Shown one piece after another: positions 739 to 40,140 of a stretch of 64,000 nt of DNA. The translations under genes were made by a program, and so were the position numbers. The notes beneath the pieces were generated by a model, which was not told the origin of the DNA, did no database searches, and worked only from the letters and a program-made list of their open reading frames with translations. The DNA comes from Apostichopus japonicus (lineage: Eukaryota > Echinodermata > Holothuroidea > Aspidochirotida > Stichopodidae): assembly GCF_037975245.1 (NCBI RefSeq), contig NC_092568.1:2976001-3040000 (forward strand). Direction: 5' to 3'. Position 1 is the stretch's first letter, and each line of letters starts with the position of its first letter.

Positions 739-3700
739 GGTTACTGATAGAACTTTGTGTGTACTACGTCAGGACAGTAAGTAATCTTTCCACCGTAGTG
801 GTTACACTCAACTGACATGTTTGTCTACTGAAGTGTGTAACAAAAAATTGTTTTTTTACAACAATTTGTAACAATTTTAATATATAAATTTTGTCACCTT
901 CTGAGAGTTAAAATTTTCTTGGGTCACAGTTTAATTGCTTTGAATCAATGTTTGTTGAGGTTAGGATATGCTTTCCTACACTTTGTTTATCTTTGTTACA
1001 TTTAGTTTTATAGGATGTGGGATTTTTTTATGCGGTGTGGGGAGGTCCTGTATGGGGGAGTGGTATTTAACTGCTCAGATTGTTATTAATCCTTCATGTT
1101 TTTTATTTTTTTATTTTTCACAGAAAACTGGTGAAAAGGGAGAATTAAGTTGTGGATGGGTTCATCTTCCTCTCTTTAGTGAAGAGACAGGGGGACCTAT
1201 CATCAATAAGTAAGTTTCCTCTCCGGGTGGACCTATCATCAATAAGTAAGTTACCTGTCCGGGGGGACATATCATTAATAAGTAAGTTTCCTCTCCGGGT
1301 GACCTATCATCAATAAGTAAGTTTCCTCTCCGGGGGACCTATCATCAATAAGTAAGTTTCCTCTCCGGGTGACCTATCATCAATAAGTAAGTTTTCTCTC
1401 CGGGTGACCTATCATCAATAAGTAAGTTTCCTCTCCGGGGGGACCTTTCATCAATAAGTAAGTTTTCTCTCCGGGGGGACCTATCATCAATAAGTAAGTT
1501 TCTTTTCCAGGTGACCTATCATCAATAAGTAAGTTTCCTCTGGGAGACCTACCATCAATAAGTAACTTATCTCTCCGGGGGACCTATCATCAATAAGTAA
1601 GTTTCCTCTCCGGGGGACCTATCATCAATAAGTAAGTTTCCTCTGGGGAACCTTTCATCAATAAGTAAGTTTCCTCTCCGGGGGGACCTATTATCAATAA
1701 GTAAGTTTCCTCTGTGAGACCTACTGTACCATCAATAAGTAAGTTTCCTCTCCGGGGGACCTATCATCAATAAGTAAGTTTTCTCTCTGGGGGACCTATA
1801 ATTAATGAGTAAGTTTCCTCTCCGGGGACCTATCATCAATAAGTAAGTTTCCTTTCCGGGTGATCTATCATCAATAAGTAAGCTTCCTCTCCGGGGGGAC
1901 CTATCATCAATAAGTAGTGTCCTCTTCGTCAAGTCTTTAGACTTTTTACATCAAATGTTATGTATTACCTTCAAGCTGTAGTTATAACTTGCTGAGTATA
2001 CACTGGTAATACTAGAAGGGTTACATTGTTTGAAATTATAAATTAAATTCAGTGTGAATTTTGGCATATTGTGTACTACCTCTGACACATGATTTAATGA
2101 GGGTGCTGAGCGGGGGGGGGGGGGGAGGAGTTGGTAGAGGATAATTGGTATAGAGGTGCTATGAAGTAGTCTTGTTTTCCATGTCCCTGGCATATTGTGT
2201 CCCTGTTTCTTTTACAGTTCTTTCACATTTTGTTAACCATTATGACCACTAAACCTTGTTTACAGTGAACAAGTTATTTTGATATTATGTAATAGGTATT
2301 AACTTATGAAAATCCTGTCAAACTGTCCGTTTGCTTTATAGGTTGTACGAGTTGCAGGTTAATGGTGGGACACCATTTGAACAGGGTGTAGAGGTAGACC
2401 CTTCCATTAGCAGGAAAGGTAAGTCATAATTCATAACCAGTTAAGATATGAGCTGTAAACTTGTTATCCTTAAAATATAAAACTCCAGTTTCAAATGGGT
2501 GTAAAGTGAGTTACTGAATTTGGACCATGAGTGTTAGCACAGAAATGAATGTTGAAATTTTGTAGACAATTAAACCACTGGTATCAGGGCAGGCTGTATT
2601 TCGACACCACTTTCATACTTTAATAAAATGATGGTTTAAGCATTAGAGGCTCATCAATCAAATTGGCTGGAGAGCTTAGTCTAGCAAACAGACCATTCAG
2701 TGAGCTACACAAAAGCAACACAAAGTTTGGTAGAAAGACCAAAGGTTTGCATGGTTTGGAATTGCATGTTTACAATTCATTACAAATATTTCCAGGACAC
2801 ATTGTGTTGGATGTCAACCATTTAAAATGCAGTGTGCGTATTTCGACTCCACAGGTTTTATGTAGTACAGCAGCTATGAGTCATAGATCTAACTGATAAC
2901 TAACATTTTGGATGATTCAAATGTGCGAATTTTTGCCACAAGGAACTGATATGAACTGCAATGTTGTTGTTGTTGTTGCACTATTGCATATATCAACATT
3001 TAAAAATCATACCTCAAGCCATTCTGTAACTTTATATATGATCTTTCGTCACAAATGTCAGTCTTACTTCTCTACATGTAATTTTTAATATTCATAATCT
3101 GAAAAGAAAACTTTCCTTTCCTGCTCTCCTTTCCAGTCTCTACCAGCAAACTCCGATCGATGCTGACAGCCAATAAACAACCACGCCTCCATCTGAAACT
3201 TATTGCTCCAACCAAGGAACAGAAAACTCAGCTCGAGTAAGTATTTGTAAGAAGTAGGTTTGGACCTTAGGAATATGTTTCATTTACTTATCCTAAGTTA
3301 TTTTTTTTGGTCACAATCTAAGATCGATGTACACACACATCATATTGTCTTCAGACATAATCTGTAACTGCATTTCACTAAAATGAGGCAAAACCTTCCT
3401 TAGTTTATAGATTAAATCAGTTTGAATACAGATATTTCAAGAGAACACTTCTGATGGAATATTTAACGCTTTTTAGTCATTTTTCTTTTGTCTGACCCCA
3501 GGACTCTACCCTTTACGATTGTTAGTGTGGCCAGCTACCTACCACTGCTGTCCTTCTACAGAAGAATTCTAGCCGACGCTGTCTTGAGGGACCGGATTGA
3601 CATTCAAAGCACTGGTAAGTCTCTGCAAAATTATTGGAAACTTGTTATCTTGAAAGAAAAACAAGAAAACCAAAAAACACCCTCTGACTTTTGTATCACT

Positions 3701-6620
3701 ATTATGGTTAGATTCATGAAGGTGTTGATAGGATTAAATCTTATGTATTAATGTCCTTGTAACAGTACTCATTCTATCAGGGTTGCCGTCCTATAAATTA
3801 ACAAACTGGTCTTTCATTCAAATGAAAATTAATGTAACGTTTCCAAAGCTGTTTTTAAAGATGGTACGCTGGATATTATAACTTTCCAAGTATCTAAATT
3901 TGTAATATGATAGATATCATTTCTGAGTTTTACATTTGATAAGCTCATTCACTACGATAATGCCAGACATTGTAGCTACATTGTATACTGCCATATACCC
4001 CTGTAGCTGGATTTAGTTTTTCTCACAACCCCCACCCACCCCCGTTTCATTAGTTTTCAGTACATACGCAATTTGGAAACAGCTTATCTTCTTTAAGAGT
4101 GGTATGTTTCCATCTCTCTACAGCTGAAAAATATAGAATGATTTAATTTCTCATTTCAAGACAAGAACTATCTTTCTTTCTAGGTATTGATAAACTGACC
4201 ACTGTTCCTACCAAAACTTGAAACTTAATCAGCTCACTCAAATTAGAGATTTCTTTCCTTTAAGAACAGCCCTTCTTTCCTTGATCCATCAGTAATAGAC
4301 TGATTAATCTCTTTTGTTTCTCACAGAGCTCATACATAGTCCACTTCTTGCCAACTTTCCTAAAGCAGCCAACCTTCCAGATGTAATGGATGGTCTAAGG
4401 GTGAGTCATTCAGGTCTACTGTTCAGGTCTTCTCCAGGCCCGGTGTTGTCAGTATCTTTATAGCTGCCGCGTATCCAAGAATAGTGCCGAGAAAATTTAT
4501 CTGGAATGGGCAGTGGTGGACAGATATAGGGCTTGATAAACATCATTCCATTCCATTGTCCCTGAATTGTGACTTATTTTGTATGGTCCTCTGGGTTAAT
4601 GAAATGTTACTATCACTTTCTACATACTGTAAGTCACAGTTTTCACCTTCTTTTGGTCTCCATAGTTTCTGTATCAAAGAAAATTTCAGACAGAAGTAAA
4701 TGTGGTTAAAAATGAAATTCCTGGAAACATAGTCTGTTACTTCCCTCTCCCCCTTCTCCCAAGATTGTACCAGGGACACAATAAATGCATTAGGTGCGCA
4801 TGTCATGAAACAAAGCAAAATATGAAATTAGTGGGACACAAAATTTGCTGCATTGAACTAAACTGTTGACAATGTGGCTGTATATACCACACATATTTCT
4901 CAGTTAGAGTGAGGGGGTATCCAACTATGTTTCACCCATTGCAAAATACAGCTTTAAATTTGAATTAATCTAAACTTTTATCTCTTTTGGTAAATTTTCC
5001 TCACAGAGTATGTGGAATGAGAAGAAGCGAAGCACTAAGAAATCGGAAAAGGTCAGTATTGAAACGTACCCTTCCAAGTGACCATCCGATTAATGTGCTA
5101 TTCTTAAATCAAAGCTGTGTACGACAGTAACATTTCATGCTTTTTGTTGAAATGTGAGCACAAGATTGTAATACCCTCCTGTAGAAAATGTAACCCAGAC
5201 AGAGTCCACTGTGCATGTTAACCCCTCTGATTTTTATTTACTTTAATCATGAGGGACGATCGAGGAGAAATAATATGAGTGTTTTGCTACGGAACAAACA
5301 CAGTTCTTAATTCAGTCAACATTGAGCTAATCTTGTAAACTAAGGCAATGGGATTTTTGATCATTTTGGTAATGAACTTGCAACTAGAGCTTCTTCAATA
5401 CTGTGTCATTCGTTCTTAGAAGGTCACTCCATTTAGTAAACAGTTGGTGTTTTCACTCTGCTCATAAAGTCAGCCGTGTAACTTGCTTAGAAATTTAAAA
5501 GACTTCTTGGGAAGCCAGACACTTTTGTGAGGTGTGAGAAAAAGGCACATGTAGTGTAGTAGATATTTCATACATTACAGTAATATTTTTTAACCTTTTT
5601 TTAGATGTGGAGGGAGGTGGGAGGGGCAAACAAAAGATTATGTACGAACCCTTCCTGTCTCACTCTCCCATGGCTGTATCTCAATATATATATATTTTTG
5701 AAGTAAATTGCAAAATCTGTATAACACAATCACATTAAGGACAACATTCATAAATTGATACCATTTACCAAGTTTCTGAATGTTCCAAGTTGATTATATA
5801 TCTGTTTATCTCTTTCCTCAGAGGGATGGTGAACAAATGAAAGCATTGTTTATATCTGCTTTCATGGAGAGTGCTTATCCTGTACTGTACTCAGCGACCC
5901 TCCCAGACTACCATTGGCCAGATATCGAATCAGAGCAGGTATGACAACCCACTCCACTCCCCCCCCCCCCCCATATCCTACCATCCCTTCTACTCTCCCT
6001 CCCGTGTCCTGGTATGCTGTTGAAGATTTCTGATCAGCTGTTGTGTTCAAGTTCAGGTTTTTTTTTTATATTTTATAAAATCCCGCAAAAGATTTAGCAA
6101 TTAATGTAAAAATTTCAAACTGTCTACTAAGGTGATTATCAAAACTAGAATTAATGACTTTAATGTGTAAAGAAGTAATGACAGTATCTTTCTGATGTGT
6201 CATAGGAATACCATACACTGTGATTCTTGTGCCTCTATTAACAAGATTGAGATAGTGTTTAAGGGACATTCCCTTGTTCTGTAACCATTGACAACAAGCT
6301 GAGATATATCGGTAAAAGGTTAATTCGATGAACGCTAAGGCACTAAACAGTATTGCCAAACTTTTGAAATGCCTTTAAATTGCATGGGAAGGGATATTTC
6401 ATGCCCTGATGAATTTCCACTGTTTTACTCACCTAAAATTTCAGGTTCATTCTAAAAGACTGTCTCTTTTCAGGTTCGATGGGAGAGTATATCAAACTTC
6501 ACCGCAGCTTCACATCAGAAGGGCATTCTCACAGCATTGTTGAGTCCTGGCAAAATGCATACACCCTTCCACACATCAGAGGTTAGCTTCGATATACTTG
6601 GAGCCTATACAAACAGGTGA
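739..6620 (+). CDS. NPHP1: Nephrocystin-1, C-terminal 264 residues in nine exons (5' end outside window)
   Basis: Exons seen: 739-776, 1124-1209, 2342-2418, 3137-3236, 3502-3614, 4327-4400, 5007-5051, 5822-5938 and 6474-6620. All introns begin GT and end AG, and the joined frame is open to TGA at 6618-6620. The product is the C-terminal nephrocystin homology region. Diagnostic stretches are [32 protein letters not shown], a motif around [15 protein letters not shown], and the ending [15 protein letters not shown]. The family protein is about 730 residues, so roughly the last third is present; the N-terminal coiled coil and SH3 domain would lie upstream. NPHP1 is known to act at the ciliary transition zone and cell junctions with NPHP4 and RPGRIP1L. 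Exon choice rests on splice consensus plus remembered similarity to vertebrate NPHP1. The intron after 1209 is unusual because it carries about 20 further copies of its own splice donor. Confidence 0.9.
1124..1209 (+). CDS. NPHP1: NPHP1 exon whose 3' end seeds a minisatellite
   Basis: Encodes [12 protein letters not shown] through GGPIIN, ending in two bases (AA) of a lysine codon completed by the next exon at 2342. The true donor is AATAA|GTAAGT at 1209/1210. The last ~15 exon bases and the first ~20 intron bases together form the unit repeated to about 1932. The in-frame TAA at 1211-1213 lies immediately past the junction. Confidence 0.85.
1195..1932 (+). repeat. About 35-bp minisatellite made of the NPHP1 exon-intron junction, ~21 units
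   Basis: Unit consensus is GGACCTATCATCAATAAG followed by TAAGTTTCCTCTCCGGG. The first unit straddles the real exon end and the remaining ~20 are intronic. By eye, 18 of 21 units keep a perfect GTAAGT; the exceptions have GTAACT near 1564, GTAAGC near 1880 and GTAGTG at the last unit near 1915. Unit length varies slightly through the G-run and one short insertion near 1725. On the minus strand it is read as a spurious repetitive ORF. Confidence 0.95.
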
Positions 6621-6799
6621 AAGGGAGGATTTGATCAAGAAAAGTGACTGATAACTGCTGAACTTGAGGTTTGATGCTTGGCAGGAAGGTTTGATGCTTG
6701 ATGGGAAGGATCATGAATTTATGATTGGTCATCATCTGGAGAGAATTTGTGAATGATTTGTGACAGCATCACATTCCAGAGTAACATTCCAAGTGATGT

Positions 6800-7630
6800 G
6801 ACACCCTGATGTTACATGGACTGTATGAGAAGTGCCAAGTGGTATTCATCTGGAAGGGTTTCCTGAAGTTTACATCATTTGTTTACAGAGGTATCACACT
6901 AATGAAGATACAAGTAAATCAACAGTCATGCATCTGTAGTTGCATTTACTAGTACATTGGCCGGTATGAGAAATGACAAGTGGCGTTCACCAGGGAAGTG
7001 AATTTCTGAAATAGTTGTGACATCATTGTTTACAGAAGTAAATTCCACCCTGTGTGACATCACAATTTAAGATAACAGTTAATCACCAGTCATAGGTCAG
7101 ATGTTATACTTCTGGTATTGTGGATGGAATGAGTAGTGACAAGTGGCGTTCACCTGGAGGTGAATTTCTGAAATAGTTGTGAGATCATTGTTTACAGAAG
7201 TAAATTCCACAGTGTGACATCACAATTTAAGATAACAGTTAATCACCAGTCATAGGTCAGATGTTATACTTCTGGTATTGTGGATGGAATGAGTAGTGAC
7301 AAGTGGCGTTCACCTGGAGGTGAATTTCTGAAATAGTTGTGACATCCTTGCTGACAGGTCAATTCCACCCTGTGTGACATCACAAGTTAAGATACCAGTT
7401 AGTCACCAGTCATAGGTCAGATGTTATACTTCTGGTAACTTGGATGTCATGAGAAGTGATGTTTGCCTAGAGATGAATTTCTGAAATAGTTGTGACATCA
7501 TTCATAACAGAGGTTAAGTGGTATGTGACAGTATGATTCGGATGTGTAGGATATGTCATAGGATGCTTGCTGTAATACAAGGATTGTATGAGAAATATCC
7601 AAACTGGAGAAAATTTTAAATTTTGAGGTT
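6800..7630 (+). repeat. Tandem repeat of about 160 bp, five to six copies
   Basis: The marker motif ATGAGTAGTGACAAGTGGCG or a diverged form recurs near 6823, 6962, 7126, 7287, 7447 and 7577. Spacing is about 160-164 bp in the core and shorter at the edges. The central copies, starting near 7126 and 7287, are almost identical; the outer ones decay. It lies just downstream of the NPHP1 stop codon and may be transcribed as 3' UTR. Confidence 0.85.
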
Positions 7631-9840: not shown

Positions 9841-10048
9841 TCAGGGTCTTGCATGTAGTTCTCCAACTTCTACGAGAGTATTGGCTGCTGATTGGATGGT
9901 GAAGGCTATCACAGACATGTGCTTTTCCAGTTCAGCCCATTTACTGTCGTTATCCATACCGTTTTCGATGTCGTACATTAGATCCATAATTCCGGGGAAG
10001 ATATCACCAAAGTAACCGTCCTTGCTGCTTGGGGCAAACACAATATGT
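9841..10048 (-). CDS. FOLH1/NAALAD-like: Peptidase last exon, dimerisation-domain end
   Basis: Encodes [20 protein letters not shown] and the terminal helix ending in ARP, then TGA. It aligns without a gap to human APSSHNKYAG: the glutarate-sensor Lys (K699) is replaced by Gly, while Tyr (Y700) is kept. Confidence 0.9.
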
Positions 10049-13000
10049 CTGTAAGAGAAAGAGTGGGACAATTTAACCAAGAGTGAGAATTTCTATGAAA
10101 ATTCGGAAATTGATTGCCTACTGTAACAAAACCCATCAATAAAGAGAATACACCATGTTAGGTTATTTTTGAACTCGACATTTTCATCTAAAACATTATG
10201 TAACTTTGATGATTAACTATTGTCATCCTTCTACTACAGTGGGGAGGTAGAGGGGGAGGATGGGCATGGGAGGGGGTGAGGAGGGAGGAGAGAGAAAGAA
10301 AGGTGGTGGCAGGGAAGGGGAATGGGAGATGGAAAAGGTGGTGGAGAGGGAGGGAGAGAAGTGGTAGGGAGGAAGGTATGGGAGATAGAGGAGAGGGTGT
10401 TGGTGTGAAAAGGTAATACTACCCGTTTAACTGAACAAAAGATGTTTAAAATACATATGTGAAATTAACATGCTAGTTTGTCATCCCAAGAGAACCTAGG
10501 GCTTTATATTAAGAATATGCCAGATTTATTAATTCCCTTGCAATGTAAACAAAGTTATTAAACAATCCATTTATTACAAGATTAACTTTAAGAAGATTAG
10601 CTGCACTACCTGACCAAGGGGCGATTTGGTAGCCCCTGAGGGTCTATGAACGCCCTCTCCATCAACATAAGCTGATCGTTAACCTTTCGGACGGCAAAAG
10701 GGCTGAAACGAAAAGATTGATGAATGTAAACATAGAGAGTTACAAGAGTGGATCGATCAGATGGTATGATTCTTTTCTCCTGTTTGAAAAGAGTACTTTG
10801 TTTACAATCTGACCAAAAAACTTTGTAATATTTACCCTCAAATGTGCAATCCACACAATGTTCATTACCAATTGGTAACGATAATCACTTAACGTACACA
10901 CTTTGACAAACATTTTACAGCCATCCTTAAAACTATTTGAACATTCTGAATTCATTCAAGGATTAATTGAAGGGCAGGATACCCAGTGAAATACATCTGT
11001 AAAAAAAAAATTGCAAGTCAAAACATGCCAACACTTGAGCCTATATATGCTGTTGGCATTTAAACACACTGATCCGCATAATGAATTGTGGTGAAGCGTA
11101 AATCAAAGGTCATATAAATTAATACCTTTTTTAAGTACACAGTTAATTGATTATATTGTACAATTTTCATTCTTTCCCTTTTCTTCTACCAAGACTACAA
11201 TATTAACATCATATATATGCAACCACCTTGCACCACCTCAACCACCATGCACCACCTCTCTGCTGCATTTACCTGTCTCCATATCTTTTGTGTAGGATTT
11301 TAGCCTCGAGAGCCTGACCAGCGGCAGTGAAGTAATTAAGGGCAATATCAATTGCATCTGTAGAAAATAAACAAAGAAATATAATTGAAACAATGTCAAT
11401 CCAGAACTCTGTGCATTTTCAATCAGAGAATAAAAGTCAATGTTATTATTTAAAATAATTATGGAAATTGGAAACAGACCAAAGTTTTCAAAACAATATT
11501 TTTCCAATTTATTTTATGGAATATACTTGATTGTACGGTGCAATGTGTCTCCTTTCCAATTCAAATTCCAATGATATGAAATAAGTTTGCAGTGAAGTAT
11601 GTTAAAACTTCATGAAGCACAGGTAGATGGAGGGAAGCAGTGAGTTTGAAATAATGTCGAAAAACTAATCGATTTCCACAAATGCAAACATCAAACAGAA
11701 TAGTTGCAATTATTCAACATAAGGAACAAAATATTTATTAAACGTTAGCTTTGGCATTTTAATGGAGTAGGAAGAATTCACTCCAATGCAAAACCGGCTT
11801 GTAGCAGAGATCCCAGTGGCATTGGAAACAGTTAAGACTTATAGATTCAAACTACACAAGGCATTTCAGGTTCAGAAAAAAATAAGTCTATCCGGATAAA
11901 TATACTGATCTACTATGTATGCAGACTATAAGACTGATCTTCAATGTAGGAGACACTATACAAATAAATAGACTGACATGCTACGCTCACAGACACTCTA
12001 TTAAAGTAAATAGACTGATATATTATGTCAGCAGACATTCTATCAAGGTCAACAGACTGATAAACTACATAAGCAGATGCTATGTCCAGATAAATTCATC
12101 TACTATGTAAGCAGATGCTATGTCCAGATATACTGATCTACTATGTAATAATATGGAAGACACTCATGGTAATGCAATATAATGTTGATTCCTTATAACC
12201 TACCAAACGATAGTCCACGTGTGGCCATCTTTTCTTCGTAAGCCTCTTTCAGTCCGTCTGGTCCATCCAGGGATCGTCTCATCTTGAAAGCATAATCAGA
12301 CGCCTTGAAGGGAAGAATGAGGGAGTCGGCTAAATTCCTGGCCAATTCCGCACACACCCTGGCAATAACACGGTGATACTCAAAGGAAGGATCTAAGATG
12401 TCGTTCACGAGATAGAACGTCTCGTACATGGAATGGTAGAGAGGATAGCCTGCTAAACCTGATGCCTGCCAAGCAGAAGATAACAAGAAAGAAAATAATC
12501 CCCAAAAAATAATCAATGCCAAAAAACTTGATCTATCTATCACTCAACCCCAGTCCCCTTACTGTACATAAAGATTTTAACCAGTGATTATGACGTTGGC
12601 ACGCCAAGTAAAGTATCATCAGTCCCTTCAAAAGGAGAAATATACTACTAATGATATTGATCAAAGACAAACTATGGCAACAACGATACTTACAGGGTCA
12701 TAAGTATACCTCAGATCCACTGCAGGTACACCAAGTCTGCTTAACAGGACTGCATAGTCACTTCCTGAGCCAACATTGGATATGCTGCGGAAAGTATGAA
12801 ACAGCCTCTTCATCATTAGAAGCAATGTATCCGATTGTGAAAAGTATAAAAATTAAAATATGATGAGACAATAAAACATAGTATAGGTAACATAAGTCTA
12901 TGCAAATTCTGCTTTTAATGAATACCTGAATATACAGCTGTGTATTAGCCCAAATGAATATTTTACGCATCATTTTTACATCATTGCTGTTGTCCACACA

Positions 13001-16000
13001 AAATGATTGGTTATTCTCAACTTTGACACATCCCTACAACACCTATAAAACTACAGTTCTGATGCCAACCCTATGTTGATGGGATTATCTTCATATTCTG
13101 CACACATAAAAATACGTACCCTTGGATATCCTCATTCCATTTAACGACATGTAAATCGTTATTCAACCTGAAACAGCCATTGCACCTGCTACAACCTTTA
13201 CAGTGACAGTGTATGTATCATACATCCCATCCCCTGTGGTTCCTCTGTTCAACAGAGATGGTGAGTGCATGAGTTCTGAAGTCACAAGTCTGTACGACTA
13301 TATGGACGAGACACTTCTAGGAAGGAATCAAAGATTTAACAACAGAGATTTGCATGACAATCAAGAACTTACTATGGCACATTAAGATTGTTATCCTTCA
13401 TTCGTCTCAACCAAGTATCATAAACGTTACTTGAATGACCTTCAAATGGAGCATCAGGAACCTGAAAAGGTAACGAGAAAAGGAATGATGTTAAAACTAT
13501 ACTTTTACTTCCAAGTCTTTATGCTACAACAATTAAGTATCTATCCTGCTTCTACTACCCCTGGCCATCCTTCACCCCTGTATACCCTTCACCCCTACCA
13601 TATGGAGTTACAGATATTTAACATAATGTATGAATTAAGTATCCTCTACCCTAACTCCTATTTCCCATCACCTTCCCCACCCTCTTCTCCCTTTCCCTTG
13701 CCCTGTATCCACAAAGAATGCTTTTACAGATTATTTACACAAAATTAATACATAAATCACTATTAGGATCCTCATCCTGTTTCCAAAACCACCCATCGTT
13801 TACATTAAACTAAGGATTGTTTAACATGATAATGTGTGAATCAATAAGTATCTTCTACACTGAAGGGATATGTCCCTAAATGTCAGATAAGTTGCATTTC
13901 TTGGGGGGGGGGGGGGGTGGGGGCTTACTATAAAGAATTACCCATTATTTTAAAATAAAATTCCTTGAACTACCAGCTGAAGGTTTTAAGGTAAAATAAC
14001 AATCCTATTATACATACATACCGCTTTGGTTGCATCATACAATGCATTGTATAGGTTGGGTGTCGCTTTTCCGCGGAAGGTAAAGTTTCCTTGAACAGCA
14101 ATGTCAATATTGATGTAGGCAACGGCTCTCTCCACTAAAGGCCTTGTAAATTCCTAAAGAGTATATTAGGAGAACAAACAAATAAATACATGATCATCAT
14201 ATTACACTCAAAACGATTACAAACAATCCAATATTTAAGATTATTTATTAACCCCACTTAACTTCAATTTACTTTTCTTCCAAAATTAAGAATTATGCAA
14301 GAATTTGCCCTTTTTACAGAAATAATGAATCCTATACTCTTTCTACCTGTTTTTGTTCTCTTCTGTATTTCTAAGGTTCTTGCACGACTAATATATAACA
14401 TCCGAAGTCATTTTCTTGATAATAATGTTATATTTCATCTGCAAGTTCAGTTTTCATAAAACAAAATTCTACATTTCATGGCTGCCCGCGATATTAGTAC
14501 TTGCTAACTAATGGCCACCCAAGCCTCTCCGGACAAATATCTCCTACTAATGTTAAATAAAGAAAAAATGACCAATCTTTGATTAATCATAAATTAAAAT
14601 TACCCGCTTGGTTGCTTACCTCTACCCACTCTGTAGAGCCGATCAGTCCATACTCCTCGGCCCCCCAGCTGCAAAAGACAATCGTACGACGAGGGCGCCA
14701 TTTGCCTACAAATCAGACGAACAGGTAAAAGCTTTGCGGAATAGAAAGGCTTTAGCAAGTTCAGCACTGAAAATTTTTATCAATTGAAAGAAGATTTTAG
14801 GAATGAATGTTTACTTGCAAAGCAGGAGAAATCATTGATTTCACTATAGAGACCTAAAATATTTTAACGAGACAGATCCACAGAGGGGCAGGGTTAATTG
14901 CTGTGTTAACAAAGTAGTAAAACGATGACCTGATAGTTTTTGGTACCAATCCATTTAGACTCCAAAGAATCTTACGAGTTCTAGATTGAAAAATAACAAT
15001 TGTCAGTCAGACATATTTTATTAATAAAAATAATAAAATGTTGATTAAGAAAAACTAAGCAAAAGAATTATATGTGGTGGAAAATGTATATTTTCATGGA
15101 AGTTTACAACAGCCAACTTTAACTGTATTCAATATATCCATGCCTTTACTGTACCTTCCATAACAAGCTTTGTCATCACCCTGGACAACTCAAGAAGGAC
15201 CGCGGTCCCACTGGATGGATCGACAGCACCAAAAACCCAAGCATCGTGATGGTTACCAATCATCACATAACGATCTAGAAAGACATTTAGGAGTAAATAA
15301 TTATGATATAAACTGCCACATAACCTACAAACAGGAGGGACTTATTGCTAAACCAGAATAACGTCCTTGTGATTCCTCGCCACATTTAATATGAGAATAC
15401 TTAATGTAACACTGCAGACAAGATTTGGCCTCTGCTTCAGGACCAACATGTTTCCTGAACCATGGGTAATTAGCACCCTGATTACACTAATTTGGACCTG
15501 CTTGCACTCATGTGGCCCTGTTTGCACTCACGTGGACCTGTTTTAACTTACATGGAACTGCTTGCACTTATGTGGACCTACATTCATGTGGACCTGTTGA
15601 CACTTATGTGTACCTATTTACACACATGTGGACCTGTTGACACTTATGTGGACCTATTTACACACATGTGGACCTGTTTACCCTCATGTGTACTGTACCT
15701 ATTTACACACATGTGGACCTGTTGACACTTATGTGGACCTATTTACACATATGTGGATCTGTTTACACTCATTAGAATCTGTTTACAAGGTATTCACACT
15801 TTCTCTTGACTTGAAATGGAAACATTACCTTCACAGATAACAACAGGCTTCTTGTATTCACTAAGATGTATACACAAACCTTCTTTGAAGTAACTATAAT
15901 TATGAATATGTATGTTTCCATACCTGGTTCTAGACTGCCTGTGATAGTTCCAATAATATTATATGTGGTGTTCCTCTGTAGTCGGTTATTTACGTCCAAT

Positions 16001-19000
16001 TTTATGTTCCTGCAGAGGCAAGCAAAACATAACAGACATGTTTTCCCCCCAAATGTGTACAACTTAATCTGAAGAATAGCCACAATGCCCAATTTTAAAA
16101 TACAAAAGCCAATTTCACTGTAATTAATAGTAAAACATGTTTCAAAAAGATATCGCAATAAATGGCAAAAGATAAATGTTATACATGCGTTGTCATAGTT
16201 GGACAATATTTAACATACATAATAATTATGGCAAACTCCAAACAACACAACCGTGCCAGAACACCTAGTGGCTGTTAACAAGTTTCTCACAATATATTTA
16301 CAGATAGCACATGTCACATACAATATGGTAACATGCCACTGATAACTAACTACAAGATAAGAAAACTACTTACATTTATTTAATAAAAGCTAATATATTT
16401 ATGGAAACTTCAAGACCGGTATTTGTTTGTGATATTTAAAATAAACACAAAAAGGTAAAGACTTTCACACAAACAAGAGTTGTGAGTTGAATGTCTATTC
16501 TTTCTGTCTTCCTTTATCAGAGCCTGTTAATTAACAAAATAAATATGCATTAGTTAGACGATCATGATGGAACATTAATTAGATATAATAATAAACTTCA
16601 ACCACAAGGGGATATTTCAAACTTTACCTGTTATTGACTAGTCCTGGTCCTAACTTGTACGTCACATTCAGACCACCGCTCCACTCGTCTGGTGCTGCGT
16701 CACCGGCCATCTCCCTAAGAGGTTAATAAAGTCATAGGAAAAAATATCAAACACCAGGCCATCAAAATATGAAAAGAAGGGGGGGGAGGGAGGGGGAGGC
16801 TACCAGGGAATAATTTGTCCAGTTTTGCATTACAAAATGCTCTGTATAATGGTCAAGTTGTGATACAAGTCCAAAGGTCTCTAGCTGTTGTTTTGTTTTT
16901 ACAAAGGAAACCATAGTATTTTATAGGACACAAAAATAAAGAGCCCTTTAAAGCTGATACATAAAATTTGAACACTAAACTATTTCCCTGGCTCCTGAAG
17001 AGGGCTGCGTTTCCAAAGTTGAAGCAAGCCCTCTCAGTTGATGCATAGAGCAGCCCAAATACACTGTATTTTGAGTAATTCCTGTAGCCATTTGATAATA
17101 AAATGCCATCACCATGCTGGAGGGATCACTGTTGTTTTATGCATCGCATTAATACTAAGTGACAAAAGAGTCACGCCAACACAGTTTCAGAACCATATTT
17201 ATAACATTCTGTAATGATCATCCTTTAATGGAAAAAAAAACAGACCTTTTCATTTTCATTTTTAAATTGCAATATTTTTTATTATGTTTACACTGAGTGT
17301 GCCTGCTAACATTTGCTGGATAACAATGACTAATTGCAAAACAGGACGTAAAATCAGTCGGTGATCTCATTTTATACAGAGGCAGATGTCGGGGCCACCT
17401 TCTTGGGTGAACAGACAATGGTTCCTTGAATACTTTATGTCATTTACTAGTACTGTTTGTCTTTGCCATTTCTTTTGCAACCTTTTGAAACACAATTTTT
17501 TTTACCCCCATACCTCAAAATATGTATAGCATCCCCATATCCAATTGGTTGAACAGGAATATTTGGAAGTTCGCTGTCTTCATATTTCTCTCGGAAAGCA
17601 GTCTCTGTTGAAGAAACATAGCAGCAAAGCTTGTTGAACATGATAACACTTTCTAGCATTTTGAAGCACATCTCGGCATAACACCAAACACTTTATGTCA
17701 TGTTACTTCTTAATTGATAACCAAATCAACTGAATGTGACACAAATAACTAAGGTTATTATGCAAGTAAAACCATATGATCCGTACATCATAATGAAGTG
17801 ACAAATCCAATTAATTCCAGCCCATTCTTTAGAACCGTTTCAAGCTGTCAAGCTGAACTTTCAGAAGGACTTCTAGAGCAATAATATCAGCTGGATTTTC
17901 TCTTCAGGGACAAGCAGAAGGTAATATTTCAACCTGTTGTAAGGTGGGCAGCCCATAGACAAGAAAAGGAACTAAACAAATCCTTTTTAGGACAATTTGT
18001 AATAAATCTGACAATAATGTCTATTGGATATGATAATTTGACACCACTTTATGAGGTGGGTTTATATATGCAATCATGTCATAGCTGTGGTAGGATGTGT
18101 TACCACCATATATATAGCAGAGTGGAATACGAAGGACAGTGGCGTAGCTAGGGGGGTCAAGGGAGGGCACGTGCCCCAGGCGCTGGGTTTAGGGGGGCGC
18201 TGAAATGGCCGGGGAATGAGAGTAAAAAAAATAAGCACTTTTTAGAAAAACATAACGAAATTGATGTATGTCGTCAGGCATGAATATTTTCCAGTTACTA
18301 ATAAGAATCTGAACTGAATGTAGTTGTTTTTATTAGCAAATTTATAGATTGTGATTTCTTTTCAGTCCATTACGACCTTTTTCCCCCTTTTTTTTATTCT
18401 GTTCTGTATTCTATGATGACTACATCCACGGAAATTTCAGGTATTTCAGCATACAGTTCCAAGGCAGTAGATTTCGAAAGGTGGAAATACCATAGGCGTA
18501 GGAGCACAATATGATTTGGGAGGGGGGGGGGGGACTGTAACGACTTGCCCGAAAAATTTAACCGCGCAATTTATTTTTCTTTCAGTAGTGGGGGGGGCGC
18601 AATTTTCTACTCTTGCACCCGGTCCCCAAATCCTCTAGCTACGCCACTGACGAATGGATCTTGTATACCTCTGTGATAAGTGCAAGGGATGCACAGCAGG
18701 CCTATCCCTGTTAGGACATGGTGTCTGCACATGACCTTACCCTGGAATACCGATAACCTAATTCAAGACAGCAAGACTGTTTTAATATCTATGCTTGCCT
18801 TCTGTCACAGGCTGGTCTACTCACCCGTGGCCGGATACCCGGGTGTGAGAGGGTCCCCCATAGGACGGAACACAGTACCTCTCTGAATGCCGGAGGGTGG
18901 CATGTACCAAGAGTCCGGGTAGACGGACGATGAGCCCTCGATGGCATAGTCTGCCGGATCTGAATATAATATTAATCCCTTAGCTCCTCGAAGCCAGGCT

Positions 19001-22000
19001 TGGTTTTCCTGAAATCAACATTATCAAAGAGAGTTAAGATAGTAAAATTGTCAGGCAAGTGAGAGTATAAGTAATACTAGGGAGAGGGATAAACATAGAA
19101 TTATGATATCTAATCATTTTTCAACACAATACTTACAGAGGAAGGGGCAAAATGCATTGAGTACCTCTCAATCAAAATACTTGCACCCCGACCCCAGCCC
19201 TTTCATTCCCCCTCCCAACTTGAGGATATCTATCGTAAGTGATAATCCAGACCTTTTTTAATTTTTTAATACCTGAGATCTATCCACCTCCTAATCTTAC
19301 CTTATCGCCTCGGAATATCTTCCCGTATCTTGCAATCACTACCTTGCCAGATGCATTCACACCCAGGTCTTCTAACTGCTTGAAATCCTCTGCTCTAGCA
19401 TAGTTCACATAGACCAATTCTCCCTTCAAAGTTAAAAGACAAAAGAAAACATCAATACCATTATTCTTTTGTCATGCTGAAAGGTACAAATAGGGACCCA
19501 TACAATATCTTTAATACAAATATCATTATGCATCCGTCTAACTGTTGGGGAACTCACAGAGAGAGAAAATTGGAGAATTTTATCCTTTCATACCACTGAT
19601 AAACATTCATGACTTAATACTTGAAAGTTATAGGTCTGGCTCTTTTAAATACAAGTCTGATAGGGAATGGTTTTATGTTAGATATTAAACAGTTTTAAAT
19701 GGCTTTCAAAAACATTTATTCTTTGAAACACATGCTTCTCTACATGTTTAGATTTTAAATTTGAAATCATACCAAAGGTAAAACTATGGGCTATGCAGGA
19801 TAGTAGAACATTGAAGGCTGGATGGGTCTGGACACTCAACCACTCTACAGTTAACAATGTCATGGGTTTCGATCTATATCACAAGTAATTGATACTCTTG
19901 TGGTTTCTTAGTTACATACTTCTCTGCATACTGTTACTGGACGTACACCTACCATTTGGTACATTACATACTAAACCAATGTATCAGTAGTTAAAAGTCA
20001 TCATAGCAAAACAGTCCATGCTCACAGGGAATGTCTTCCTGGAAGGATGCAACATTTTACAGACATTTCTTAAAATTGTGGTAACAACAGCAGATTAAAT
20101 GGATGAAATGTATCATTGAATGAAACCAAATTGATCAAGCTGTATAGTTATCAGCATGTTATTCTTCTCAATAACTAGAGTTCCTCTTACCTCCACCACA
20201 CCTGCAGGGGCATAGGCATTAAAAGGGAACACTGTGTCATTATGTTTGTCACCTTCATCGAGCTTGCTCTCCTCTGGTTGAGACTGAAAGTAGTCAGTTC
20301 CATCCGAATTCAGTATGGTGATCTAAAGAGAAGATGGAAACATAATCTTATTATATACCAAACAGGATATTCAGTGACAGAGCAATGTATTTATGGCTCG
20401 TACACCCCTTTCCTCAGTTTGAGTAAATATATGAAACAGAAAAGTCAAATTCAGTTTATATCGTTGCATTCGGAATTGTACTTTATTAAAGGTGTCAGTG
20501 ATGGACTAGCAGATGGGCAGGGCAGAACTGATGAGGCATGTATATAGGGGCTCCCAAAGTCATGTGAATCCCAAGGTGAACGTTGATCCGAGGGTGAAGG
20601 CACCTCTGTGAACATTTCCAAGCTGGGTCATACCAACTTTCTATTTCGAGAGTGTGCCAGCAAGGCTGAATAAATAGGTAGTGGGGAAAGGTAAGCACAT
20701 TGTAACTTAGCCTTAAAGGGGATTAATCCAGCACAGGATGGTGTGATTCCACTTAAAAGAATTTGTTAGTGGTTGTTGTGGTGGGACTAGTACATGGCTC
20801 TACCAATATCTAATGTGATGCTGTACATGCAAAAGTGGTTTATTTTCTAAACTCAAACTGACTTTTCACAATAGATCCCTACAGTTCAACCCAAGATACA
20901 ATAGTGCATTGTTTTACACTAGTGGTATGAAAACAACCCACAAAGGTGCAACCATGCAGCTGGTGATTTCCACACATCAATGATGATGATGATGATGATG
21001 TTTGTTTATGATTACAATATAGATGCAGGATTAGGTCTACGGACTGTGAAAGTGCATTAGGCTTAGCATAGGCCCCCAAAATGGTGACATCCCTATGTTC
21101 CAACGTCTCTATGTTCCGACGTCTTTATGTTCGGATAAAAAGAAAAAAAATCGGAGCAATTTTTTTTATCCAAAAATTTGTTTGTACCAAGAAAACTAGC
21201 TTTGTGACCCCAATATTTTTGTGACCCAATATTTTTGGGGACTCAATATTGTTTGGACCAACATTTTTTCAGACCAAATTTTTTCACAAAAAAAAATGTT
21301 ACCCAAAGTTTGGTATGACCCAAACAGTGCTTGTGACATTCCTCTATTTTAACTTCTATCTTAATTTTAAAACTGCTATACAAACCAATGCAGATAAGTA
21401 CCCTAGTGTGACTAGTAGGCAAACCACACTACTGTATGTCCTTCATGCAAAGATCTTCTATGCAATAGTGTGGCAGTAGTTGTACTATATATACTTACCA
21501 AATTTGGTTTCTCTGGATCGGGATAAGACAAAAGGACATCATAAGGCACTATTCTGGTTGTTTCCATTCCCTGGGTATCCCAAACGCTTTTGACATAATC
21601 AGCCATCTCTTTATCAGCCTCTGTTCCTGCAAGGTGTGGCTTCTTTGTCAATAGCCTGTTGAGATGATATGAAAATGAACCATTCCATAAAAAAAAAGTG
21701 AGTTTGTGTAATTCACTGGAAGTTTGTTAAGGTCTATGGAATATTGACACATTCTGAAAATAACCCAAAGTTATTACTAAAAGTCTTCAATATTGTCCCC
21801 AGATATGCTAGAAGGTAAAGTTATAATGGTCACTCATGTGACCATAAATGCAATAAGCAATTTGGCCGCCAGCTTTTCGCAAAGCCTCTTTCTTAATACC
21901 TGAGATTACTGTTTGTTAACTCTTCAATTTCTATCATAAGTTGTAGGACCTGAAGTCCTGGAAGTAGTACTGAAATATTTAGCAGGGTTCTTTTCTTTTC

Positions 22001-25900: not shown

Positions 25901-27540
25901 GGGACCTAATCCTAGTGTTTACCACGTAGGCCTCTAGGCCCAATGTTATCGTTACTGTCAGTGTAAGCCTAGGGCCTAATATAGTATCTGGAAATTATAT
26001 GATTCCAACGAGAACAAGTCTGAGTAGGTTTATTAGGCTCGGGCAACAGTAGACTAGCTTATAATAGTCTACATTAAAAGATCCTTTCCAACAGGCGTTC
26101 CAATGTAAAACTAAATAGGCCTAAGTTAAGCTATTGCAGAAAAGGATACATAAAGATATTCAAAGGACCTCTTGTAGCCTAAAGTAAGGTTATATTACGA
26201 TGTGGTACTACCAATTATGGCACACTTCGGAAATTTCATGAATAAACCATGGCAACAGAAAGTTAGCCAAACTTGAGCTTGAAGTGTGCTCGTACAGTAG
26301 TGCGCCTCTCAGTCTCAATGAGTTTTTAACACAGCTGAAGTCAAACCATGATTTAAATCTTGCAAAGATAAGTCCATGCCCAAATCAATGAAATAATCAA
26401 TATCAAGTCTTTTGTACTACGCAGCTAGCATACTTAGGCTATATCAGCTAGACTTTTGCCTTGTTTATGTGTCCATGGTAAAAAGCAGTCTCCTATTGCA
26501 CCTATTATATATGCTTCAAAAACAAGGTAAGGATAGTATTTTCACTCCTTCAGGGACAACCTAGTGAATTTCATATGCAATCCTCTCTTTCCAGAAGGCT
26601 GTGCCATAATACTAGTTATTGGCTGCAGCACGTTTTCAAAAAGTACTCTCCTGGAGGTCTTTACGTCTCCAAATTGTTCTCAGACATTTGTAAGGAACAC
26701 ACAAGATGACTGATTGTTGCAGTGAGGAAATTCCCTCAAAGGCTGTAACTAAAACAGTTTATGAATTTTGACCAATGGTGACCATATTTGAATATCTAGC
26801 ATATTTGGGGCCAATACAGCATTTAAGTGCGTCACAATTGGTGCCACCATGCTACGTTAAATATAGATTCAGTTGGTCCACAAACTGAAACATTTCGCAA
26901 ATAAATATTTTCACAATTAATCTAGGTCTAGGCTAACTGATTTAGTTGATGTTCCTTTCCGAGGCCCTAGGCTATGGCAATGCAAAAATATTTCAAAACA
27001 TCAGCAATCATGAAAAAAGAGGAAAGAAAGGAACTGCCCAGGGATTTGAAAGATGCACTCAAAATCATGAAAAAATACACTTTTTAAATAAATTTTGCTT
27101 CCAGAGCAAAAAACTTGAAACAAGCTCTTGTTTGATATGATTAAGATACTGTTCAGATTAATGAAATGACGTCAGTGAATTCTAGCAATGCTCACTCAAG
27201 TACATCACAGTCCACTGAGTCTAAGAACTGTTTTATGTGTTACTTTTCTTAATAGGGTACCCAAATTTTCAAATGTCTTCCACCCATTCATATGAGAACT
27301 GAATACATTGCACCTGACTGAAATGTGTTAATTCTGAACAAAGATACTTCCATGGAAAATTTATGTAACATCAGTAGAATTAAGTTTCAGGTTGGTTTTA
27401 GTACATAAGTAGAACTATATCCATCCAATTTAGGAATGGTTTCTTAAGATGATTGATAAATATGGAAATCAAATCTATGTATGTAACATGACACATTTAC
27501 ATTTTGCATTTGAAATACTTTCCTTCTCAGATTGGATTGA
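22922..27540. other. Intergenic region between divergent peptidase and coiled-coil genes
   Basis: No coding exon recognised. It should hold the peptidase gene's 5' UTR exon(s) and the coiled-coil gene's promoter. The CpG-bearing patch near 25550-25690 is the most promoter-like part on composition, but this is weak. An acceptor-like CTTCTCAG at 27524-27531 just before the coiled-coil ATG suggests that gene has an upstream non-coding exon here. Confidence 0.4.
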
Positions 27541-30500: not shown

Positions 30501-33196
30501 GAAGCATAAGTATTAGTCAAAGTAGAAACCCCCCTTGTTATGTGTATGTGTACAAGACTCTTAGCATGAGAACGAGTACTAATCAAAGAGGTCGAGTACA
30601 AGAACAGGAAGCTATGCTAGAATAAACACTACGAGATTGCCTCACCGTCAGCTGAGCTCCTTTACAAAAGACTGTCTATTATCTTTCTTGTAGAACATGT
30701 CTACTTTCCACTAACTTTGGACTACCAGCCGATCCTTATTATGCCAAAATCTAAAAGTTCATTTGTAAAGTATTTCTATTCGTCCATTTTAATTTATTAT
30801 ATTTATCGTTACTTGGTTTACATTTGCCTTGTTATATTTTCTGGATGATCTGTGAACTCAGTCTTTTAAGAGATAGTTTAAGGGATTACAGATTCTTTGA
30901 AGTACTAACACTCAACCACAAAACAAGCTGTGTATAGTGCATTATTTGTTTTTCAGGAATGCGCTCCTGCCATGTCTGTAATTATCAGTACAACGATGAG
31001 AACTTAAAGAATTTAAGAAATTTAAAATAAAGATTCTCTTTGATTGTAAATTGATATCTTGCTTATTTGGTTTAGAGTGATTTACTGTAATATGATTATA
31101 ATTAATAACATTAATTCTTTCTTTCCTGTTTTAGAAGCTTTATCAGATGTTTCAGAAAAGTTAGGAGCATCAAATGCAAATTTAGAGAGTAAAGTGTGAG
31201 TACATACAGAATTGACATTTGTGAATTTAACTTAATTTACCAGTGTGTTCAGCAGAGGTCACCTAGGAACAAAATAACAAATGTTGATGAATATTTTCCA
31301 ATCACCAACAGTGATTCAAATGAATCATTCTTGTAATAGTAAATATCCATCAATACCTAAGAGCATAACCACAAATATAATTGTGTCCTGGAGCAGCATA
31401 TTTATACTACACAAGCTCACAGACTTACTTCTTTTGCAAGGTTGACTTCAGGTTCAATATTCAAAATACAAGTCAGTTTCTGTTTATTTGCACTCCTTTT
31501 GCAGAGAGGCTTTTGAAAAAGAATTGGAAAAACTTGGGATTGACCCTGGTAAGTTGTTCATGAATATTCATTAAGTTATTAATGCTATGACAGTTTGCTT
31601 ATCAACAGTTTTCATTTAGTGTTTTCTTATCGTTTCTTGTTTTTTAGTGAAAACCAAATTCAAGTTTAATGTTCATTTTTGCTTGGAATGAAATGCATCC
31701 AGCAGTTTTTGATTTCCCACTTTTTTGGCATTTTAGATAAATTCCTGAGGGATAGGAGGACAGTTTCCCATTCATTTGAGAAAAAGTTGCACTTTTTAAA
31801 ACTGTTAAAAACTTCTAGTTCTGTCAATAAACAACTTTTTTCCTTCTGTCATCCTTTCCGCCCATCCCTCCTTCACATCCATACACCCCTGTCTTAGTCC
31901 TTTAATCTGCTGACAATTTGCTCTTTGCTTTGTCATTTCTCAGTTTCCTTCGAAAAATTACCAGCAGAAGATTCAGAAGAGAAACAGAGAGAAGTGAAGG
32001 TAGTTTTGTTTTCTGTTCCTTAAATCTAAACAAATTTGTTTTTTTTTTGCTTCCAATAGTATTTGAAGTTGAACTATTATATTTCAAGACAGTGTTGAAA
32101 ACTTGGATCAGGAGGAATAACTACATGTACGATTTGTTTGGTAATTAATTAAATATGGAAATATAACTTTCAGTTGCATGCAATTTGCAACTTTGTACCC
32201 AAGTAGCCATGTGCACAGACTAGCCATTAAAGACAGTCGTGGGAATCTTTATATATAACATTTTCACGACACGCTTCAAAGCACATGCATGAACAGTATG
32301 AAAATCATGTTTCTGTTAGATAAATGTTTTGAAACTGTTTATACTGTCAATATGATGGCTTTGAATGATGATATGAATAATTATAATAATGATTATTATA
32401 ATTATATGAATATTTATATTATAATCATCTAGTATGTTAACTTTGTTTCCTCCTGTTATGTTCTATTTATTGCAGATAAAGTTGGACAACCTTATCACAG
32501 ACTTAGACAGCAGCATTATAAAGAATGAGAAGCTCTTAGAACAGTTTCAGGTGAAATATTGTTTGATAGTCTTACCATGCTAACTTTTGTACAAGGGGGG
32601 AGGGGTAGCAGGGGGGTAGCAGGGGGGAGGGACCACTGCAAGATTTCAGCTCCTAATGTCACTATGTAAACATCATGCATTTATAAACATGAATGCTTTT
32701 ACATTTTAGTGTCTCCTAAATGGAATAAGATTTTTCTCAGCTATTGAGAGAGTTGTTCATCAAAATCTTCTCTAGATTAAAAGCTATTTATATCGATTAT
32801 GGTTTAGGTTTACATCTCCTTTGGATGCCATCTTGAACCAATTATCTCTCTATAAACCCCAATATGCTGTCAGTATTTCTTTCTTTTTTTAAAGTAGGGA
32901 ATAGGGCAGGGAAAATGATACTTTACATGATAAAAATAGTTTTGCCTTTGCAGCTTCAAGATTAAGCTCCAGCCGGAACATATAAAAAGCAGAGCTGCTA
33001 CCAACCGTTCCTCTCAATCCCTTTCTAATATCCTTGTGACATGTGTAATTAGATTTCAGGCGTATGAAAATCACAATCCATAACCGTTACTTTGTTTTTT
33101 CCTTTTTCTTTTCCTTTTTTCTTGATTTAGGCTATCGTGGATCAGTGTAAAATTCTCCAAGAAGAAGCTAATGCTCAAACTGAGGTGACTACATGA
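27541..33196 (+). CDS. Small coiled-coil protein, 170 residues, eight exons, family not recognised
   Basis: Exons: 27541-27575, 27975-28074, 29782-29857, 31135-31195, 31505-31548, 31944-31999, 32476-32550 and 33131-33196. Each intron starts GT and ends AG, and the joined frame is open from ATG (MSTKTTGKQGDP) to TGA at 33194-33196. The first donor (GTAATT) is weak, so the N-terminus is least certain. The product is highly charged and nearly all helical. Heptad-like stretches are KSDHRNILKEHGELQNKLSK, KRLEKENHELKEQISQEERM, then a break at LGIDPVSFEKLPAEDSEE, and a second helix KLDNLITDLDSSIIKNEKLL. No signal peptide, TM segment or Cys-rich motif is seen. The charge pattern and exon coherence support a real gene. 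A centrosomal, ciliary or kinetochore scaffold role is possible for such proteins, but I infer no function. Confidence 0.72.
28113..28704. mobile_element. Non-autonomous DNA element with ~50-bp TIRs, TA target site
   Basis: The left arm GGCCGGGAGCCCAGAAGATT, continuing TTATTTAGCCGAAAAGAGAC, is mirrored on the right by GGCTAAATAAATCTTGTGGG then CTCCCGGTC. The arms differ by a few substitutions and a short indel over about 50 bases. TA dinucleotides flank both ends (28111-28112, 28705-28706), as for mariner-like elements. The interior has three degenerate ~100-bp copies around ATGACAGCAACTTT and CAGCCCCA. It lies in the first large intron of the coiled-coil gene. Confidence 0.85.
28916..29325 (+). 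repeat. Two degenerate ~235-bp tandem copies rich in AGGTCA
   Basis: Copy 1 has CAAAGGTCAAATCAAGTGAA, later GGTTGCCATGGGAACGTAGG, then AAATGTATATTTTTAG. Copy 2 has CAGAGGTCAAATTAGCTGAA, GGTATCCATGGTAACTGAGG and the same AAATGTATATTTTTAG end. It is intronic in the coiled-coil gene. Confidence 0.7.
32377..32405. repeat. Perfect 14-bp AT-only inverted repeat
   Basis: ATAATTATAATAAT, one spacer G (32391), then its exact reverse complement ATTATTATAATTAT. It lies in an intron of the coiled-coil gene, 70 bases before an acceptor, within a longer AT-rich tract. Confidence 0.85.
32595..32631 (+). promoter_or_regulatory. Intronic G-quadruplex motif
   Basis: Six G-runs (GGGGGG, GGGG, GGGGGG, GGGGGG, GGG, with A or TAGCA loops) lie 45 bases downstream of the donor of coiled-coil exon 7. 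The sense strand, and hence the pre-mRNA, carries the Gs. Confidence 0.7.
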
Positions 33197-39169: not shown

Positions 39170-40140
39170 CATTTGTCTTTGCTCAGCACTTATTGGTACT
39201 GTAAGTATTGTGTTGGCTTTGGTTTCAGGATGTTTCTACGGTCTGAAAGTGTAACTTGCCTTACACCAGAATCTTTACATTTATACAATCATCTTATCAT
39301 TATTGCAACACAATACACATTATCACCCACTGAACACAATACAGTTTTTAGAGTATTCTAGCTGTACTTCCCCTTACAAGTCCAAACTTGAGAAGAAATA
39401 CGTGTACTACTGTACTCACTGAATGCCTAAAGTGCAGTCTGTGGTATGATAGGACTTTGTGGTAACCTGAAAGCTTACAACATTTTAAAGTATCACACTT
39501 TGAACTGGGGATAACCTATTTGTACCCACAATTTGCCATTGCTGAGTATTACTCAGGTATTGCTTAAATTGCTTTCAGGATCTATTGACATTCATGTGAC
39601 CTGCCAAACACCCCAATTGTGTAACCCAATAAGAACGATTTATAAATTGAGTAGTGTACACAGTACAGTTTGATTGCTCCACTGGTACTTCCCCTGTAAC
39701 TCATACTGTAACGTAACTGTAACGTCTATCACACCACACTGTGCAGTAATTGCATGTGTGCTCTCTGTGTGGTAACTTGAAAGCTTACAACATAGCTTCA
39801 ATTATTATACTTTAATCTGGGGACATACAACTGTTTATACCACAATACAATAATCTTTTCTGAGCACTTTTCAGGTATATTGCTTTAACTTTAACAGGAT
39901 GTTTTAGCCTACACCCGATGTGTAATCCAATCAACCCATTACTGCAAGAACTATTAATAAATCAGGTAAGGTACTGTACACACACAATACAGTGTGAACG
40001 TACAGTACTTCAATGGTACTTCCCCTTTAGAGACCAGTTAAGGTCAAGACATGTATTGTAACCATTTGTCTATCATACAGTGTGCAGTGTGTTATTCTCC
40101 TATATGGTATAATCACCTGAAAGCCTACAAAATCACTGTT
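39170..40140 (+). repeat. About 330-bp degenerate tandem repeat, three copies
   Basis: Each copy carries, in order, a variant of CTGAGCACTT, TTTCAGGATGTTT, GTAACCCAAT, ACAGTACAGTTTGA, GGTACTTCCCCT and CCTGAAAGCTTACAACAT. Copies start near 39170, 39510 and 39830. Confidence 0.7.

Follow-up and report, generated by a model that had tools for sequence, protein, structure and literature searches.

In the echinoderm Apostichopus japonicus, an intron of a nephrocystin-1 (NPHP1) gene opens with 20 tandem copies of its own 5' splice junction. With a probability of roughly three in four, we read this array as a minisatellite of the kind known as a mirage: a neutral duplication of an exon-intron junction, tolerated because the first donor is the one used. 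The anatomy of the array, its copy number, its private unit, the retention of donors and the predicted stop after every extra donor can be read directly from the sequence. The array is real but ordinary in kind, and its recurrence in an echinoderm is the interesting part. We see its value in being one among roughly a dozen probable junction arrays in a single genome, and the finding suggests that mirages, known from amphioxus, also occur in another deuterostome group.

The array lies in an NPHP1 gene

We analysed a window of 64,000 nt (C8:2976001-3040000) from a 671.6-Mb genome in 35 contigs; the locus occurs once in the assembly. The features on which the argument turns are the following, in window coordinates.

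1124..1209, plus strand: NPHP1 exon of 86 nt, acceptor tttttcacag/AAAAC; its open frame is spliced in frame into 7 further exons
1190..1925, plus strand: minisatellite array, 21 units of 33-38 bp (Tandem Repeats Finder, donor-anchored cut and alignment)
1210..1215, plus strand: authentic 5' splice site TAA/GTAAGTTT, the sole donor of 21 that keeps the frame open to the exon at 2342
1210..2341, plus strand: host intron of 1132 nt, 716 nt of which are array (exon ends of the manual model)
1246..1919, plus strand: 20 extra donor copies, with GTAAGT in 17 of the 20
1246, 1282, 1317, 1352, 1387, 1422, 1458, 1494, 1529, 1562, plus strand: GT of the first ten extra donors
1597, 1632, 1665, 1701, 1739, 1774, 1809, 1843, 1878, 1914, plus strand: GT of the last ten extra donors
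2342..2418, plus strand: next NPHP1 exon, G/TTG TAC GAG ..., acceptor tgctttatag/GTTGT; frame preserved from 1209
3137..3236, 3502..3614, 4327..4400, 5007..5051, 5822..5938, 6474..6621 (stop), plus strand: remaining 3' NPHP1 exons (manual model)

The eight exons of this manual model have usable acceptors and donors and form one open frame of 252 residues, with a stop at 6621. The exon at 1124-1209 begins in codon phase 0 and ends ...PIIN K(AA/G), in phase 2. The 252 residues encoded by the model gave no Pfam or PDB match; presumably they resemble the C terminus of human NPHP1. Within the 10 kb upstream of the window, two same-strand exons, joined by eye, encode an SH3 domain for which the best of 202 PDB matches is 1s1n, nephrocystin-1 (5.2e-13). 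From the SH3 match we accept the host as NPHP1, the identity that the original prediction had given it. A 160-bp tandem repeat (window 6966-7502; 3.4 copies by Tandem Repeats Finder) lies just 3' of the NPHP1 stop, and exon-like frames of a glutamate-carboxypeptidase-like gene, recognised by eye, adjoin NPHP1 on the minus strand (window 9841-19471).

The repeat unit spans the exon-intron junction

Tandem Repeats Finder places a single array at 1190-1925 (period 35, 20.9 copies, 86% matches, 4% indels, score 1079); its rows with periods of 142 and 177 represent the same array. Cutting this stretch at the donors yields 21 units spaced 33-38 bp apart, 20 of them beyond the authentic donor, which bears out the expectation of about 20 extra tandem copies in the intron. 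The array begins 20 nt within the exon, so the repeat unit is indeed the junction itself. Each unit corresponds to the final ~20 exonic nt (1190-1209) and the initial ~15 intronic nt, the reverse of the ~15 coding and ~20 intronic bases first proposed.

The same cut leaves the hexamer GTAAGT intact in 18 of 21 copies and AATAAGTAAGT intact in 17 of 21, the authentic copy being included in both counts; the earlier figure of 18 perfect AATAA/GTAAGT donors thus stands for the hexamer and becomes 17 for the full 11-mer. The deviating copies read AATGA/GTAAGT at 1809, GTAACT at 1562, GTAAGC at 1878 and GTAGTG at 1914. The 64-kb window contains 36 plus-strand GTAAGT hexamers, 18 of them inside 1124-2341, and their density at the array is far above chance. 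Within the array there are two YAG triplets only (1508 and 1915), so the copies would not be easily usable as exons.

The unit is private to this intron

When the units are aligned, mean pairwise identity stays at 0.83-0.85 for all lags between 1 and 10. Such even identity fits an older, shuffled minisatellite rather than a simple assembly duplication. Of all units, the last differs most from the first (0.67 identity); its identity to the others is 0.51-0.74, as expected for the edge of an array.

A genome search with a 21-bp unit core, allowing up to 3 mismatches, returned 43 sites, of which 20 belong to the array and 23 are scattered (one with 2 mismatches and 22 with 3), against 31 for a reversed control. 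At this tolerance the unit core was not found beyond control level elsewhere in the 671.6-Mb genome. An introner or other dispersed intron element is rejected on these counts, 23 sites outside the array standing against the control's 31.

Conservation of the 11-mer AATAAGTAAGT, which 17 of the 21 copies have intact, exceeds that of randomly chosen column sets (p = 0.0017). Such an excess might mean selection, which would count against a neutral reading. The best-kept 11-mer window is ATCAATAAGTA (19 of 21 copies), three bases upstream and off the donor core, and in our reading the variation outside the donor is inflated by G-run and CpG columns. Selection on the extra donors is suggestive only, and we do not claim it.

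Every extra donor is predicted to lead to a stop

Joined to the exon at 2342, all 20 of the extra donors give an in-frame stop right after the 29 codons ending ...PIINK, because the phase-2 junction reads AAG TAA; the position of this stop is variously given as codon 29 of the exon's frame or one codon past the exon. Full-length protein would therefore need the first donor.

The authentic donor and 17 of the 20 extra copies share one predicted U1 duplex energy, -5.6 kcal/mol; the remaining three copies lie between -4.0 and -4.5 kcal/mol. Values for the other six scored NPHP1 donors run from -7.2 to -10.6 kcal/mol, so the array consists of mediocre rather than perfect donors, and its authentic donor has the weakest U1 pairing of the seven.

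The array resembles known junction minisatellites

Mirages, minisatellites that lie across an exon-intron boundary, are described from the amphioxus Adh3 and globin genes (PMC3087553), and the lancelet troponin C and PGBD5 genes are described as carrying them too (PMC3902484). Unit lengths of 10-72 bp are quoted for Adh3 mirages in PMC3087553, a range that includes the 35-bp NPHP1 unit. Like the amphioxus mirages as portrayed there, the NPHP1 array is a tandem repeat whose unit spans the exon-intron boundary and whose intronic copies, here 20 extra ones, in many cases carry AG/GT splice signals (GTAAGT in 17 of them). Judged from anatomy alone, it is a mirage. The two differ in host and position: the NPHP1 array has 21 copies at a donor in an echinoderm, whereas haplotypes of the cephalochordate gene BflGb6 are reported with mirages of 3 and 6 units at an acceptor (PMC3087553). 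Regular splicing is reported to be undisturbed by amphioxus mirages bearing splice signals (PMC3087553, PMC3902484).

The human gene IFI6 (6-16) offers a second likeness, in that several splice donors at the end of one exon come from a minisatellite (Turri et al. 1995, NAR 23:1854, as related by papers that cite it). Two of the downstream units there reportedly serve as donors and give isoforms (PMC4526556), whereas in NPHP1 all 20 extra donors would lead to a stop; with translation ending at codon 29, downstream units would not give longer proteins here. Intron gain by tandem genomic duplication, as it has been described, likewise turns a duplicated gene segment into intron sequence, but it creates a new intron where the NPHP1 array lengthens an existing one.

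The original prediction had regarded the array as unusual in kind, a view that the amphioxus mirages, human IFI6 and the 11 of 24 other donor arrays that seem to lie at exon ends (see below) do not support. We found no report of a mirage in any echinoderm in the literature searched, which is weak evidence of absence, as subscription journals fell largely outside its coverage.

We propose that a segment across the NPHP1 exon-intron junction underwent tandem duplication, and that slippage or unequal exchange later expanded and shuffled the copies. With the exon forming the 5' edge of the array, the copies would be intronic and the protein unaltered. The spliceosome would mostly commit to the first donor, which is transcribed first and lies beside the 86-nt exon's own enhancers and acceptor; we infer this preference because the NPHP1 protein is needed and because of the amphioxus reports. 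Leakage to later donors would yield mRNAs with an immediate stop, probably degraded, and the extra copies would therefore be nearly neutral, retained rather than purged. In keeping with this, the extra donors are not eroded, 17 of the 20 retaining GTAAGT, contrary to the outcome expected from purging of decoys. Where 5' splice sites are duplicated, the downstream copy is often favoured, and this counts against use of the first donor. By analogy, the downstream units reported as used in IFI6 (PMC4526556) would also speak against it.

Alternative readings of the array

The extra donors might instead form a regulatory decoy, competing for U1 as the original prediction proposed and diverting a share of NPHP1 pre-mRNA to degraded isoforms carrying a stop, so that repeat number would tune output. 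A stop does follow each extra donor, U1 pairs weakly with the authentic donor and no better with 17 of the 20 copies, which have an equal score, six of the extra donors would give exons of a plausible size (122-298 nt), and splicing from repeat units is reported for human IFI6 (PMC4526556). We nevertheless consider a decoy unlikely: read-through of a phase-2 GTAAGT gives TAA (G/TAA) anyway, so the stop needs no special cause, and amphioxus mirages are reported as normally spliced (PMC3087553, PMC3902484).

We think it very improbable that the array is a protective platform, its early-intron U1 sites suppressing premature cleavage and polyadenylation or raising U1 density for a weak donor. Among the seven NPHP1 donors scored, the weakest is the one at the array, and the intronic part of the array has 18 runs of at least three G, nearly one per unit, G runs being a splicing-enhancer motif; against this, the core U1 match per site, judged by eye, is the six bases GTAAGT, and the predicted duplex is weak. 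An assembly artefact or a haplotype-specific array is scarcely credible. Mirage repeat number is reported to vary (PMC3087553), but the ~740 bp of array hold many distinct unit variants and fall well inside long-read length, and the locus is present once in the assembly. We reject recursive splicing and an intron in the making, in which units would act as acceptor-donor ratchets or new microexons: mirages have been proposed as a route of intron gain in the amphioxus globins BflGb6/BflGb9 (PMC3087553), but AATAA rather than AG precedes the donor GT (AATAA/GTAAGT), and YAG occurs only twice in the array.

Similar arrays lie at other probable exon ends

We scanned the genome for three copies of AGGTAAGT at 16-46 bp spacing and obtained 14 arrays from the 100 matches listed out of 152; all 14 were examined. 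Adding three of the nine arrays listed by a scan with AAGGTGAGT and seven from a scan with AAGTAAGTB gave 24 arrays, a sample drawn from the matches listed, out of 152 (AGGTAAGT), 309 (AAGTAAGTB) and 165 (AAGGTGAGT). The 24 do not include NPHP1, six G-rich AAGGTGAGT arrays or the arrays formed by a dispersed 46-bp repeat.

At 11 of the 24 arrays (L003, L004, L005, L006, L007, L015, L066, L068, L069, L070 and L072), an apparent coding exon ends at the first donor, or 38 nt (L005) or 69 nt (L015) before it. Protein homology lies beside seven of these 11, and the matches are to TIL (1.1e-9), glycosyltransferase 21 (1.3e-10), tyrosine phosphatase (6.2e-10), the serine palmitoyltransferase family (1.1e-5), gephyrin (3.4e-15; Pfam MoeA_N 6.5e-9), Yju2 (2.8e-12) and SID-1 (2e-8). 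Those to gephyrin, Yju2, SID-1 and the phosphatase extend to the final residue before the donor. L007, L069, L070 and L072 showed no homology in the searches made, and their exons were called by eye. Runs of GTRAGT donors in the exon-end arrays number from 3 to 65. Eight of the 11 have a stop ahead of the second donor; L005, L007 and L068 have none, and use of the second donor would thus not end translation within the added piece there.

At L068 (C12:69000-72500, minus strand; C12:65220-69424), the last 36 nt of a SID1-like exon and 7 intronic nt form a 43-bp unit. The stretch examined holds 65 GTRAGT donors, Tandem Repeats Finder counts 69.7 copies with 96% matches, and matches go on towards C12:65220. 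L007 (C2:13554400-13556400, minus strand) is a 33-bp donor array in phase 0, stop-free to +207, where an in-frame, 11-residue VSHESVQIVTK-like unit would be gained with each of four extra GTAAGT donors. Donor choice could alter protein length there, or the array could be a plain coding repeat.

Where near-identical donors stand beside an authentic one, they form a natural experiment on the choice that the spliceosome makes between equal 5' splice sites. A single array is a curiosity, but the matches listed here supply about a dozen candidates that vary in unit length, copy number, donor strength and reading phase. More tentatively, and with more doubt than belief, exon-donor junctions may be preferred birthplaces of minisatellites in this genome. 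Transcription- or splicing-linked breakage would then seed arrays, tens of genes would carry 3 to at least 65 near-identical 5' splice sites, and in some of them, such as L007 with its in-frame unit of 11 residues, the length of the protein could depend on the donor chosen.

Enrichment at exon ends is suggestive

The arrays were located by way of donor octamers, and a share of such octamers will be real donors in any case. For a base rate we took 40 isolated AGGTAAGT sites on C1. By eye, exon ends were called at 11 of 24 arrays and at 7 of 40 isolates (L025, L026, L029, L042, L052, L055 and L057; p = 0.02), or at 11 of 40 when the doubtful L036, L037, L046 and L049 are added (p = 0.18). Pfam matches at E<1e-3 were found for 6 of 24 arrays and 4 of 40 isolated octamers (p = 0.16). 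Accepting Pfam or PDB raises the arrays to 7 of 24 against 4 of 40 isolates, for which the criterion differs in being Pfam only (p = 0.08). Pfam was run on 18 of the 24 arrays, with several peptides trimmed by eye, and on 27 of the 40 isolates as untrimmed frames, a difference that may favour the arrays. Sites without a Pfam run (no frame, or mostly short ones) were scored as misses, and matches to Cyclin (0.0093, L074) and Ras (0.087, L026) were left uncounted.

A coding score of at least 3, a threshold not fixed beforehand, was reached by 8 of 24 arrays and 4 of 40 isolates (p = 0.025); thresholds of 5, 8 and 10 gave p = 0.06, and a rank test p = 0.044. The score is weak, since its training set of 599 codons contained NPHP1, and it misjudged exons: the NPHP1 exon scored 1.8, L003 -19.7, and the Pfam-confirmed isolates L042 and L057 -0.9 and -99.

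Arrays of an acceptor octamer were exon-linked by eye in 0 of the 8 cases listed, against 11 of 24 donor arrays (p = 0.03). Past the last copy, four of the eight carry open frames 20-77 residues long, and two frames of the acceptor array L062 gave a best Pfam value of 0.032. The excess of arrays at exon ends over isolated octamers is suggestive, and a moderate preference of arrays for donors is possible.

Whether donor-like arrays are an over-represented class received no consistent answer across patterns. Three copies of AGGTAAGT gave 152 matches against 400 for the reversed control, and the acceptor pattern TTTTCAGG gave 35 against 106. The reversed control was exceeded by AAGTAAGT (3,668 against 2,588, the matches listed being swamped by one AAGT microsatellite), by AAGTAAGTB (309 against 155) and by AAGGTGAGT (165 against 21, the matches listed coming mostly from one C12 array). 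These three-copy counts are of matches rather than arrays, so that a few long arrays decide the outcome. Taken singly, the octamer AGGTAAGT occurs at 27,121 sites and its control at 40,132.

The scans also brought up repeats of other kinds. A dispersed family of 46-bp tandem repeats with AAGTAAGTTTAACTATTCGTA-like units lies at C3:22605302, C4:13515808-13534930 and C9:26689201-26855444, and a dispersed G-rich family with AAGGTGAGTG... units contains donor-like sequence at C3:30949681, C3:31252134, C5:1467535, C5:1917549, C7:3893533 and C7:5470220. In two arrays, C1:2433338-2434863 and C1:2475062-2477975, AGGTAAGT recurs about every 76 bp, beyond the spacing of the scan. A long COX1 match on C35 translates well under the echinoderm/flatworm mitochondrial code, with AAA standing where asparagines are conserved, and it resembles a sea cucumber sequence. 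Further pieces of COX1 lie on the minus strand at C29:14745-16086 and 30842-31219; the C29 pieces are either nuclear mitochondrial DNA or part of an unplaced mitochondrial contig.
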